Below, piece by piece: positions 11,429 to 17,340 of a stretch of DNA of 64,000 nucleotides (the stretch's first letter is position 1; each line of letters begins with the position of its first letter). The stretch is from positions 62,001 to 126,000 of the forward strand of contig NZ_AYZI01000003.1 of NCBI RefSeq assembly GCF_001436645.1, given 5' to 3'. Below the pieces are notes generated by a model. It saw only the letters and a program-made list of their open reading frames with translations. It was not told the DNA's origin and searched no databases. Source of the stretch: Fructilactobacillus florum DSM 22689 = JCM 16035 (GTDB taxonomy: Bacteria; Bacillota; Bacilli; Lactobacillales; Lactobacillaceae). The position numbers and the translations under genes are program-made.

Positions 11429-12139
11429 TTACTGCAATTTTTGATCCTGAATTCCTAATTTATCAAGGGCTGCCTTGGCAGCAGCTTGCTCGGCAGCTTT
11501 TTTCGAGTGTCCCTCACCTGTCCCCAATGATTCCTGATTAATGACCACGACCACTTTGAACTGGCGATCATTATCCGGACCATCTTCATCTAGCAATTGA
11601 TAGTCAATGGCTACCGGACCGTTAATTTGAATAGCTTCTTGTAGTTCAGTTTTATGGTCGAAAAATTCGTCAAACCAGCCTTCATCCAGTTTCGGGAAAA
11701 TTACTAGTTGACAGAAATGCTGGACCGTGGCGAGACCTTGATCAAGATAGACTGCCCCAATAAATGATTCAAAAATATCACATAAAAGTGAGTCACGATT
11801 TCTGGCTCCGGCTTTTTCTTCACCTTTACCTAATCGAATATATTTTTCAAAATTACATTCGCGCGCAAAGCGACTAAAACTATGCCGGTTAACCATTGCT
11901 GCTCGCAACCGAGTCAATCGACCTTGAGGCATCTCCGGATACCGTTCAAAAATATAATCTGAAACTACCAGTTGGTAAACTGCATCACCTAGAAATTCTA
12001 ATCGTTCATAAAACTTGAGTCCCTGATCGGGATGTTCATTCACATACGAAGCTTGGGTAAAGGCTTCATCTAATAATTTTTCATCATTAAATTTAATTCC
12101 ATATTGTTGAGCCAACATATCATCAAATTCCTTTTGCAC
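11429..12139 (-). CDS. rnc: Ribonuclease III
   Basis: Cleaves double-stranded RNA, processing rRNA precursors and regulatory RNA. 236 aa. Catalytic domain with ERLEFLGDAV (about 44-53) and DIFESFIGAVYLD (about 122-134), whose acidic residues bind magnesium; dsRNA-binding domain from about 160 with the GHSKKAAEQAAA motif. Start is GTG 12139, seven bases after AGGAGAGG. First gene of rnc-smc-ftsY-ylxM-ffh, with its own promoter. Confidence 0.97.
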   Translation of the reverse strand: MQKEFDDMLAQQYGIKFNDEKLLDEAFTQASYVNEHPDQGLKFYERLEFLGDAVYQLVVSDYIFERYPEMPQGRLTRLRAAMVNRHSFSRFARECNFEKYIRLGKGEEKAGARNRDSLLCDIFESFIGAVYLDQGLATVQHFCQLVIFPKLDEGWFDEFFDHKTELQEAIQINGPVAIDYQLLDEDGPDNDRQFKVVVVINQESLGTGEGHSKKAAEQAAAKAALDKLGIQDQKLQ

Positions 12140-12188: not shown

Positions 12189-12190
12189 TA

Positions 12191-12218
12191 AAAACCCCAT
12201 CAGTTGCGATGGAGTTTT
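12191..12218 (-). terminator. Intrinsic terminator after the acyl carrier protein gene
   Basis: Minus strand: AAAACTCCATC, six-base loop, GATGGGGTTTT (one wobble), followed by T residues. It separates plsX-acp from rnc. Confidence 0.8.
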
Positions 12219-12220
12219 CT

Positions 12221-12481
12221 TTATTTTTTCTTTGGCTTAGTAGCAGTATTTGTAACAATTAATGTCACTAAATCACGAACCGTTTGAATCTTTTCAGCAC
12301 TATCATTTGGAACTACGTCACCAAACTCATCTTCAATTTCAACGATAAACCGAGCTAAGTCGACAAAATCGGCTCCCAAATCCTGCCTAAATTTGGTGGT
12401 GCCTTGTACTTGATCTTTTTGAATATTAAAATCTAGACTAATTAAATTCGCCACTTTTGGAAAAACCTGTGCTTCGTCCAT
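12221..12481 (-). CDS. Acyl carrier protein-like protein lacking the carrier serine
   Basis: 86 aa with the length and three-helix pattern of an acyl carrier protein: FRQDLGAD (31-38) and EIEDEFG (49-55) match helix II and its surroundings, and AEKIQTV the later part. The signature DSLD reads DFVD here: residue 39 is Phe (codon TTT, 12365-12367) where the serine for 4'-phosphopantetheine should be. The usual recognition Glu six positions after the preceding Asp is Arg44. A lysine-rich tail TKPKKK ends the protein. It cannot carry acyl groups in the known way. Position between plsX and rnc is the classical acpP site. Function as carrier is lost or changed; another ACP must serve fatty acid synthesis. 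Confidence 0.85.
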   Translation of the reverse strand: MDEAQVFPKVANLISLDFNIQKDQVQGTTKFRQDLGADFVDLARFIVEIEDEFGDVVPNDSAEKIQTVRDLVTLIVTNTATKPKKK

Positions 12482-12491
12482 AATTGGCCTC

Positions 12492-13523
12492 CTATTTTTC
12501 TGTTGCCTGCTTTGTCACAGCACTTTTAAGTAGATATTCTTTAACCGCCTCAGTATACCCAGAGGAAGCAATCTCATAAGCATGATCTAAGCAATTTTTA
12601 AACATCTTAGCAGTACTGTTACCGTGACCCTTAATCACCGGTGATTGTAATCCTAACAGGACGGCACCGCCATAGCGCGTATAGTCCATTTTTTTGGCAA
12701 TTGCTTGCAATGGTCGTTTTAGCAACAGTGCTCCAAGTTTACCACGTAATCCACTAGTTTTAATACCTGTTTTAAGCATATTAATCACTGCCAAAGCACT
12801 GCCTTCGGTAGCTTTTAAGGCAACGTTTCCAGAAAAGCCATCGGTCACGACCACATCAGCCACCCCATTCAACAGGTACCGCGATTCAATATTTCCAATG
12901 AAATTAATTTCACCATTTTCGCCCATCTGTACTAACATGTCATGCATTTTTTGATGAGCGATGTCACCTTTGTCGGCCTCACTTCCATTATTAATCAAGC
13001 CAACCCGCGGATGTTTTACTTTGCGCACATTCTCAGCATAAAAGGTACCGAGTGTTGCATACTGACGAATATTATCTAACTTTGCATCAGCGTTTGCACC
13101 AGCATCAATCATCGTAAATCCGATTTCATTATCGATCACTGGCATCGTAACGGTTAAACCAGGACGATCAATTCCCTTAATTCGTCCAATCATTAATAGC
13201 CCAACCACCATCAGTGCTCCAGTACTTCCAGCCGAAACAAGGGCATCCGCCGCGCCATTTTTCACTGCCAGCGCTGCTTGCACGATACTAGAATCGCGTT
13301 TGCCCTTTACAGCTCGAACCGGTTCGTCTTCCATGGTGATCATCTCTGTCGTCGGTTTGATTTTAATCCGAGTTGAATCCTTCAGTTGCGCTTGCAACTG
13401 CTGTTCGTCACCAAACAATAAAATTTCTAGGTCTTGGTGCTGATCGCGAGCCAGTTCGGCTCCCGCTACCATTGCCTCGGGGGCGTGATCGCCACCCATG
13501 GCATCAACAGCCAATCTAATCAT
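12492..13523 (-). CDS. plsX: Phosphate acyltransferase PlsX
   Basis: Converts acyl-ACP to acyl-phosphate for phospholipid synthesis, peripheral to the membrane. Start at ATG 13523 (MIRLAVDAMGGDHAP), six bases after AAGGAG; a longer TTG start would overlap recG. 343 aa. Motifs: AVDAMGGDHAP (5-15), GSTGALM (about 103-109), TVTMPVID, and TDGFSGNVALK (about 226-236). The recG stop lies ten bases upstream and the odd ACP gene ten bases downstream. Confidence 0.96.
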   Translation of the reverse strand: MIRLAVDAMGGDHAPEAMVAGAELARDQHQDLEILLFGDEQQLQAQLKDSTRIKIKPTTEMITMEDEPVRAVKGKRDSSIVQAALAVKNGAADALVSAGSTGALMVVGLLMIGRIKGIDRPGLTVTMPVIDNEIGFTMIDAGANADAKLDNIRQYATLGTFYAENVRKVKHPRVGLINNGSEADKGDIAHQKMHDMLVQMGENGEINFIGNIESRYLLNGVADVVVTDGFSGNVALKATEGSALAVINMLKTGIKTSGLRGKLGALLLKRPLQAIAKKMDYTRYGGAVLLGLQSPVIKGHGNSTAKMFKNCLDHAYEIASSGYTEAVKEYLLKSAVTKQATEK

Positions 13524-15642: not shown

Positions 15643-17340
15643 TTATTCCACTGCAACAATCAACGGATAAACTGGCTGGTCTCCTTGATGGATTTCAACT
15701 TCAAGCTCCGAATCCTGCTTCAGAGCAAATTCTTCAATCTGCTTAGCATCTTGTTCGCTAGCCCCTTGCCCGTAGATGATGGTTACATTCTCACTATCAG
15801 CATCCAACATCTTTTTAACTGTTTTAGTAGCGGCAACATCGAGCTCATCAGAGATAACTTGGATTTCACCATCAATAATGCCCATGTACTGACCTTTTTT
15901 GATATCAAAACCATTAATTTGCGTATCACGTACCGCTGCCGTCAATTGACCACTTTTGACCATCTCCAAAGAACTATCCATGTTTTTTTGGTTAGTAACT
16001 AAACTAGCCTCGGGATTAAGCGAAAACATGGCTGTCAGTCCTTGTGGAATCGTTTTAGTATGAACAACCTTCATTGGAATATCAGTTAACTTTTCCGCTT
16101 GTTCGGCTGCCAAAAAAATATTCTTATTGTTTGGTAACACCAATGCCTGTTTGGCATGTGATTGATTAACAGCTTTAACAATGTCCTCGGTGCTAGGATT
16201 CATAGTTTGTCCCCCGCTGATAATGGAGGTTACTCCCACACTGCGGAACAATTTTTCCATTCCTTGACCAGTTACAATTGCAATTATAGCTAGATCACGA
16301 GGTTGTTCACTTTTTTCAGGTTGTTGCTTTGGCTGATCAGCAGCATCCGTTTCCATAATCGTCGCTTGCTGATCTCTCATGTTATCAATCTTAATGTTTA
16401 CAAGATCACCAAACTGCTGTCCCCAAGCTAAAACCTTCCCTGGTTGTTCAGTATGCACATGAACCTTTGCCACTTCATCATCATTAATTACCAGTAAGGA
16501 ATCCCCTAACGGTGCCAAATAATTATAGAAGGTGTCATAATCAAATTTTTTATCAGCCGCCTTGCCCTTACCAAAACGTACTGTCATCTGCGTACAGTAT
16601 CCATAAACAATGTCGGCAGGATTTAGTTGTCCCTGCGCACTTTCATGATGGTCTTGATTAACTAGTTGATCCATTTTATTAGATTCAACATTAAACTTAG
16701 CCCGAACATCATTAGAAGGCTGTCGCTGGTTAAGCACATCAGCAAACGCTTGTAGCACAAATACCAGACCCTGTCCGCCTGAATCTACCACTCCAACTTG
16801 TTTTAGCACTGGTAATAAATCTGGCGTTTTCTGTAGCGCTAAATCTGCTGCTTTCGCAATTTCATCAGCAACTTCGGAAAGATTATCAGTTTTCTCAGCA
16901 GTCCGCTGTCCCGCATTGGCGGCATATCGAATAACCGTTAAAATCGTACCTTCCGTTGGCTTCATCACTGATTGATAGGCTGTTTTGGCGCCTGCCGTGA
17001 TCGCTTCAGCAAAATCAACCGTTGAGAGCGTTGTCTTGTCAGCCACATCCTTGGAAAAACCGCGAAAAATCTGAGATAAAATAACACCAGAATTGCCACG
17101 AGCACCCATCAAGAGGCCCTTTGCTAATGCTTGAGCCTGTTCACCAATCTTGGTGGTAGAGGAAGCAGCGACGTACTTAGCGCCGCTTGCAAAGGATAAA
17201 TTCATATTGGTTCCAGTATCACCGTCTGGCACTGGAAAAACATTTAGTGAGTTAATAAACTCCGCATTATTTTTTAGCACGACCGCTGCCGCTTGAACCA
17301 TTTGGTCGAACTCTTTAGTAGTAATCTTAGTTACTGACAC
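15643..17340 (-). CDS. fakA: Fatty acid kinase catalytic subunit FakA (DhaL/DegV-like, YloV)
   Basis: Phosphorylates fatty acids bound by FakB, feeding host or medium lipids to PlsX/PlsY. 565 aa. N-terminal DAK2/DhaL domain with VPDGDTGTNMNLS (about 36-48, metal and ATP binding) and GARGNSGVILSQI (about 77-89); middle domain; C-terminal DegV-like region. GTG start 17340 after GGAGA. It sits downstream of the Asp23-type gene as in B. subtilis yloU-yloV. Confidence 0.93.
   Translation of the reverse strand: MSVTKITTKEFDQMVQAAAVVLKNNAEFINSLNVFPVPDGDTGTNMNLSFASGAKYVAASSTTKIGEQAQALAKGLLMGARGNSGVILSQIFRGFSKDVADKTTLSTVDFAEAITAGAKTAYQSVMKPTEGTILTVIRYAANAGQRTAEKTDNLSEVADEIAKAADLALQKTPDLLPVLKQVGVVDSGGQGLVFVLQAFADVLNQRQPSNDVRAKFNVESNKMDQLVNQDHHESAQGQLNPADIVYGYCTQMTVRFGKGKAADKKFDYDTFYNYLAPLGDSLLVINDDEVAKVHVHTEQPGKVLAWGQQFGDLVNIKIDNMRDQQATIMETDAADQPKQQPEKSEQPRDLAIIAIVTGQGMEKLFRSVGVTSIISGGQTMNPSTEDIVKAVNQSHAKQALVLPNNKNIFLAAEQAEKLTDIPMKVVHTKTIPQGLTAMFSLNPEASLVTNQKNMDSSLEMVKSGQLTAAVRDTQINGFDIKKGQYMGIIDGEIQVISDELDVAATKTVKKMLDADSENVTIIYGQGASEQDAKQIEEFALKQDSELEVEIHQGDQPVYPLIVAVE

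Follow-up and report, generated by a model that had tools for sequence, protein, structure and literature searches.

A serine-less acyl carrier protein gene downstream of plsX

The window, by which we mean the whole 64,000-nucleotide stretch of Fructilactobacillus florum DNA that was analyzed, contains on its minus strand the gene series fakA, recG, plsX, acp, rnc and smc, of which recG and smc were named by reading of their open reading frames and the other neighbors through Pfam matches. The features considered here are the following:

12221..12481, minus strand: Ser-less acyl carrier protein gene in the AcpB position, 86 aa, stop included in the coordinates (open reading frame, PF00550 and NF002150 matches, AlphaFold2 four-helix model, ACP matches in the PDB)
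12365..12367, minus strand: Phe39 codon TTT (AAA on the plus strand) at the phosphopantetheine attachment position; Phe in 9/9 genus genes
12350..12352, minus strand: Arg44 codon CGG, replacing the recognition Glu of helix II; residues in the genus His 5, Arg 1, Lys 1, Gly 1, Glu 1
12492..13523, minus strand: plsX, acyl-ACP:phosphate acyltransferase, putative partner (PF02504, 331 bits; start taken at the second Met of the frame)
11429..12139, minus strand: rnc, RNase III, neighbor disfavored as partner (PF14622, PF00035)
15643..17340, minus strand: fakA, fatty acid kinase subunit of the same neighborhood (PF13684, PF02734, PF21645)
12488..12493, minus strand: ribosome-binding site AGGAGG read from the sequence, overlapping the plsX stop codon (12492-12494)
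12190..12214, minus strand: terminator-like stem and T run directly 3' of acp and ahead of rnc, by our reading of the sequence

Acyl carrier proteins (ACPs) are small proteins that normally carry growing fatty acids, and the Ser to which the phosphopantetheine group is attached is their defining residue. The acp frame between plsX and rnc is intact, and its product is recognized by the Pfam model PF00550 with 27.5 bits against a cut-off of 20.8 and by the NCBIfam model NF002150 with 76 bits against a cut-off of 66, the other 13 NCBIfam matches being below their own cut-offs where these are listed. The presence at the plsX-acp-rnc site of an intact acp with Phe39 and Arg44, as claimed by the original prediction, was borne out by the TTT and CGG codons read on the minus strand. 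Like AcpB of Enterococcus faecalis, the gene stands directly behind plsX, with only 10 nucleotides between the plsX stop and the acp ATG. The window protein is thus an AcpB-type ACP that lacks the residue by which ACPs are defined.

Distribution in Fructilactobacillus and related bacteria

The genus set consisted of the window genome (1.35 Mb) and nine relatives, giving ten Fructilactobacillus genomes. An acp gene was found behind plsX in nine of these, and all nine products, each detected by PF00550, have Phe39 at the start of helix II, where a holo-ACP has Ser. The codon is TTT in eight of the genes and TTC in one, and because the residue recurs in nine separate genomes through two different codons, a sequencing error is excluded as its source; we found no point in favor of an error of sequencing or assembly and give this explanation practically no weight. 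Nor is the window gene a single disrupted copy among Ser-bearing relatives, the other circumstance that was to have undone the original prediction: Phe39 is a genus-wide state and no strain oddity. In the tenth genome (G006) rnc directly follows plsX with no ACP frame between them, no Phe-type ACP match was recovered elsewhere in that genome, and its two ACP matches both bear the DSLD motif. Since this genome does without the gene, acp is dispensable in G006. A tree of PlsX and RNase III (13 rows, midpoint root) unites the ten genus members with support of 100/99 and places G006 inside a fork of eight (100/99), nested among Phe-bearing species. Given this nesting, the most parsimonious history has Phe replacing Ser a single time, at the root of the genus, with acp being lost later in G006.

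A DNA pattern search for the motif D-L-x-A-D-F-[VIM]-D across 397 Lactobacillaceae genomes recovered nine, all of them Fructilactobacillus, that is one of 40 genera, and the corresponding residue behind plsX was Ser in all 19 genomes that were read from 19 other genera. In a sample of the window's phylum (109 genomes including that of the window) the plsX region was read in 89 of the remaining 108; an ACP-like frame was present in 18 of these regions, some of the frames lying well away from plsX, and Ser was retained in 18/18, indicating that the Ser-less state is not general. No Ser, Cys, Lys or Tyr that could act as a substitute attachment residue is invariant across the nine genus proteins, although Thr79, near the C-terminus, is. 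The earlier claim that the protein would not be chargeable in the known way accordingly follows from the missing Ser, with no invariant stand-in of these four kinds to offset it.

Selection on the gene

Alignment of the gene in close relatives and an estimate of dN/dS had been proposed as a check, and these reveal a purifying selection on the genus acp that is real but uneven. The close pair G004/G005 differs by 1 nonsynonymous and 17 synonymous changes (dN/dS 0.011) and the close pair G001/G008 by 5 and 8, respectively (13 changes; dN/dS 0.15). Together these two independent pairs have 31 changes, of which 6 are nonsynonymous, where site counts predict 79% (P = 1.8e-12, computed without correction for transition bias). 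Of the 82 full columns in the alignment of the nine genus genes, 24 do not vary, and the six-residue DLGADF at positions 34-39 forms the longest invariant run (permutation P = 0.02). The numbers of codons used beneath this run are 1 for Asp34, 3 for Leu35, 4 for Gly36, 3 for Ala37 and 2 each for Asp38 and Phe39. In contrast to this run, position 44 is variable in the genus. The constraint is termed uneven because the dN of acp exceeds that of plsX in 4/7 genus pairs, the largest values being those of G007/G003 (0.54 vs 0.27).

These results bear on the suggestion of the original prediction that the gene is decaying, namely that ACP function was lost in the ancestor of the genus and that acp is a remnant on its way out, as in G006. 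The absence of the gene from one of the ten genomes and the raised dN relative to plsX would fit such a course. However, the same excess of dN over plsX is seen in one of two Ser-bearing outgroup pairs, the frame is open in 9/9 genomes, nonsynonymous changes are strongly depleted, the ribosome-binding site ahead of acp is kept in the genus, and Phe39 is unchanged while its own codon and those of its neighbors vary synonymously. We therefore regard decay as unlikely, the loss in G006 notwithstanding: the gene is kept by selection while its product is without the known phosphopantetheine site.

Predicted fold and docking surface

An AlphaFold2 model of the window ACP, built with a 29-row alignment (mean pLDDT 79, pTM 0.62), has four helices, with helix II spanning residues 39-53. 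A fold search of the PDB with this model gave 387 matches with E up to 10. Among the 50 listed, the TM-scores by query are 0.70-0.84 and nearly all titles are those of an ACP or an ACP complex, the exceptions by visible title being 9gm6 (MukBEF) and the cysteine desulfurase complexes 5wlw and 8tvt; the Enterococcus ACP 2n50 is among the fold matches with 42% identity. In its family assignment and its predicted four-helix fold the protein agrees with holo-ACPs, from which it departs at the attachment residue. Preservation of the fold would also be expected if acyl groups were still handled noncovalently, with a fatty acid, an acyl-phosphate or the chain of another carrier held in the four-helix core. 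Against this, the literature searched yielded no precedent, and the invariant residues, Thr79 aside, give no hint of a new site of attachment, so that we hold noncovalent handling to be quite improbable.

The acidic helix II residues D38, D41, E48, E50 and E52 are invariant in the genus, and Glu44 is replaced in 8/9 proteins. The net charge is -4 in the window protein and ranges from -4 to -16 in the genus; the 16 Ser-bearing relatives compared have charges of -12 to -21. As Glu44 has been lost and the net charge is only -4, the docking surface usual for ACPs is predicted to be weakened in the window protein.

Other acyl carrier proteins of the genus and the status of FabT

The window genome encodes two further ACPs, both with the DSLD motif. 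One lies in the fab-acc cluster, whose genes were named by reading, and thus answers the search for a second acp in the fab cluster that had been recommended. The other is found apart from the fab cluster, on contig C12 (locus L034, 10945-11849), where it is directly followed by a phosphopantetheinyl transferase-like gene with four NCBIfam matches, the best of them to HetI and AcpT and all below the cut-offs. A similar pair of a DSLD ACP and a transferase-like gene was read in G006 (L333, 9282-10135). Over the ten genus genomes all 19 other ACPs have DSLD, with one in G003 and two in each of the other nine. This fits the earlier proposal that the carrier role resides in another ACP, and de novo fatty acid synthesis would presumably use the DSLD proteins. 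With DSLD ACPs and the genes of fatty acid synthesis retained, the change seems to reflect specialization of one ACP out of several and not the disappearance of a pathway. As a separate observation, F. fructivorans (G007) has, by reading, two separate fab clusters (L330 and L331), each with fabZ, fabH and a DSLD ACP.

Acylated AcpB has been proposed as the ligand that FabT recognizes in E. faecalis (PMC6509188; PMC10449490). We searched for FabT with a query whose best NCBIfam match is FabT, albeit with 144 bits against a cut-off of 200, and chose E < 1e-20 as our threshold. No FabT-like protein was detected at this threshold in any of the ten genus genomes, in which the best match has an E-value of 1.6e-8 and five genomes have no match at all, against 15/29 non-genus genomes, the source genome of the query being among the 15. 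A fabT-like gene adjoins fabH in the fab clusters read from five other genomes (L322-L325, L328), and none was seen between fabZ and fabH in six genus clusters, namely those of the window genome, G001, G003 and G006 and both of G007. The fab clusters of G013 and G034 likewise have no fabT between fabZ and fabH, and their plsX-linked ACPs keep Ser. We considered and rejected loss of FabT as a sufficient cause of the loss of Ser, since the 14/29 non-genus genomes without FabT at E < 1e-20 retain Ser, as read behind plsX in nine and in the best-matching ACP in five (G012, G019, G020, G024, G033). Without FabT, AcpB may have been released from its carrier role, an effect that, given these 14 genomes, was at most permissive. 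Repeated loss of FabT in the Lactobacillaceae is possible, there being no match at this threshold in 10/10 genus genomes and 14/29 others.

A second Ser-less lineage in the Clostridia

A scan of named genomes recovered three Fructilactobacillus relatives and also the Clostridia MAG RGIG9149, in which an ACP located between plsX and rnc contains DLGADFID. Among 20 genomes of the family of this MAG (loci L113-L142) the best-matching ACP lacks Ser in all 20, with Glu in 16, Leu in 2, Val in 1 and Phe in 1, and the Glu of helix II at position 44 is usually kept. The 3-kb locus includes plsX and rnc in 18/20 and rnc alone in two (G433 and G434, the contig of the latter beginning nearby). Separate DSLD ACPs were found in 10/20 of the genomes (L124, L132, L133, L135-L141), at loci where neither plsX nor rnc was matched; eight of the other ten have a further ACP match whose sequence at the Ser site falls outside this count, and in G420 and G433 the Ser-less ACP is the only one found, G433 having been searched with the Ser-less query only. 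An AlphaFold2 model of a Glu-type representative (L114) is helical and ACP-like, with a pLDDT of 93. It may be speculated that the negative charge of Glu at the Ser position mimics the phosphate of phosphopantetheine, whose place it would occupy.

Selection on the Clostridia gene was estimated from 14 pairs with dS < 1.6, drawn from 12 of the 14 loci tried, in frames that include some upstream letters. dN/dS spans 0.10-0.53 in these, with the more distant pairs reaching 0.53, and is 0.10-0.19 in the five pairs with dN < 0.15 (L120/L123, L121/L123, L125/L126, L129/L130 and L115/L116), in which L123 is used twice. A sample of the order comprised 98 genomes, of which 95 have PlsX; 90 regions were read and 35 of them contain an ACP-like frame, with Ser in 26 and another residue in nine. 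Seven of these nine belong to the RGIG9149 family and were already counted above. The two outside it, with Ala in G474 (L156) and Pro in G450 (L178) near plsX, represent possible further losses. On the basis of taxonomy and of the Ser found in the intervening genomes sampled, the Clostridia case has apparently arisen independently of that in Fructilactobacillus.

PlsX as the proposed partner

The nine genus genomes have 10-30 nt between plsX and acp, and three Ser-bearing outgroups have 50-82 nt. Immediately after acp and before rnc, a stem followed by a T-rich tail is seen in 9/9 genus genomes that have the gene, with the weakest tail in G003. In G006, which has no acp, the stem and T-rich tail stand after plsX. 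The terminator-like character of this element is a reading by eye from its positional conservation: a motif scan of the window listed the acp-rnc stem on the plus strand only (12197-12212), and its total of 7 stems is no excess over the 5.6 of shuffled sequences (s.d. 2.2). Stems behind acp are visible in the outgroups too, so that Fructilactobacillus is not alone in having acp set apart from rnc.

These features, together with the selection on the gene, point to a phosphopantetheine-free AcpB that is retained for binding another protein, with PlsX as the likeliest candidate; of the roles offered by the original prediction, that of a structural or regulatory partner of PlsX is thus the one we favor. 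In the full form of this explanation, to which we give somewhat under an even chance, the plsX-coupled auxiliary ACP gave up its carrier role a single time, at the root of Fructilactobacillus, and persisted as an ACP body that docks on PlsX or adjusts it. The Ser-less protein would dock on PlsX through its conserved helix II, with Phe39 at the N-terminus of that helix possibly offering a hydrophobic contact where the stem of the prosthetic group would otherwise sit, by analogy with the contact of Phe113 with Isd11 in Plasmodium. Once docked, it may adjust the exchange of acyl groups by PlsX between acyl-phosphate, the product of the kinase of which FakA is a subunit, and a genuine ACP; alternatively, it may stabilize or position PlsX. 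Against this explanation, G006 does without the gene and its PlsX is not distinctive: it deviates at 8 of the columns on which the other nine agree, and other single genomes deviate at 0-15. The weakened docking surface also counts against it, as do the retention of Ser in the 14 non-genus genomes without a convincing FabT, the dN/dS of 0.15 on few changes in G001/G008, the excess of acp dN over that of plsX in 4/7 genus pairs and the dN/dS of up to 0.53 in the more distant Clostridia pairs. We also looked for co-change of PlsX with the ACP and saw no sign of it: nine PlsX columns are common to the nine Phe genomes and absent from three outgroups, and seven of the nine are shared by the ACP-less G006; the comparison was rejected as uninformative.

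A retained Ser-less ACP body might instead have another ACP-binding protein as its main partner, such as PlsC, an enzyme of fatty acid synthesis (FASII), fatty acid kinase, RNase III, SMC or a cysteine desulfurase. ACPs have many partners, and that of the Plasmodium protein is the Isd11-Nfs1 complex (PMC8547962). In the Clostridia family it is rnc that occurs at the locus in 20/20 genomes, vs 18/20 for plsX, and at locus L039 the stop of acp marks the start of the rnc frame. In Fructilactobacillus, however, the terminator-like stem intervenes between acp and rnc in every genome with the gene and plsX is only 10-30 nt away; because of this stem RNase III and SMC are the less likely partners there. 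A main partner other than PlsX is, in our estimation, possible and somewhat doubtful.

Comparison with known systems

If two lineages so far apart each retain, by selection, a Ser-less ACP at one and the same locus, this would demonstrate a function proper to the ACP body itself, possibly exerted on PlsX; such an action on another partner has been shown for the mitochondrial ACP of the malaria parasite. More tentatively, phosphopantetheine-free ACPs could be a recurrent bacterial device, in which at least twice a plsX-linked ACP became a non-carrier subunit controlling PlsX and, through it, the division between chain elongation, membrane lipid and the uptake of outside fatty acids; we consider this conceivable and on balance unlikely. 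Any non-carrier role of AcpB becomes directly testable through the natural losses of the carrier residue (nine genus genomes) and of the gene (one). The case also cautions that products without the known attachment site continue to be scored as 'acyl carrier protein' by curated family models. The open-license literature searched contained no description of a plsX-linked ACP without Ser from bacteria, which is weak evidence of absence. Sake strains of F. fructivorans with accC1 mutations have C22-C30 fatty acids, reportedly by mechanisms not known (PMC12724224); we considered these chains as a consequence of a Ser-less ACP acting on PlsX, an idea made attractive by the long chains that follow loss of plsX in E. 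faecalis (PMC10449490), and as nothing links the two they are of use only as a possible read-out.

E. faecalis AcpB resembles the window protein in its position behind plsX and in its sequence family (PMC6509188). That report describes AcpA and AcpB as interacting differently with PlsX, and according to PMC10449490 loss of plsX leads to abnormally long acyl chains. E. faecalis AcpB carries phosphopantetheine and accepts acyl groups via PlsX and is proposed to work by way of FabT (PMC6509188), whereas the window ACP has Phe in place of the Ser, and unlike E. faecalis the Fructilactobacillus genomes have no convincing FabT match. The RGIG9149 family is like Fructilactobacillus in combining a Ser-less ACP that has plsX and rnc nearby (18/20) with separate DSLD ACPs (10/20), and differs in belonging to another class, in having mostly Glu at the site (16/20, with Phe in one) and in usually keeping Glu44. 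The closest precedent is the mitochondrial ACP of Plasmodium falciparum, a retained and otherwise ACP-like protein in which Ser is replaced by Phe; this residue, Phe113, is reported to contribute to the binding of Isd11, and the F113A substitution to weaken both this binding and the growth of the parasite (PMC8547962). In Plasmodium both the mitochondrial pathway of fatty acid synthesis and the modifying enzyme are gone; in contrast, the window genome keeps a fab-acc cluster, a DSLD ACP and a phosphopantetheinyl transferase-like gene.
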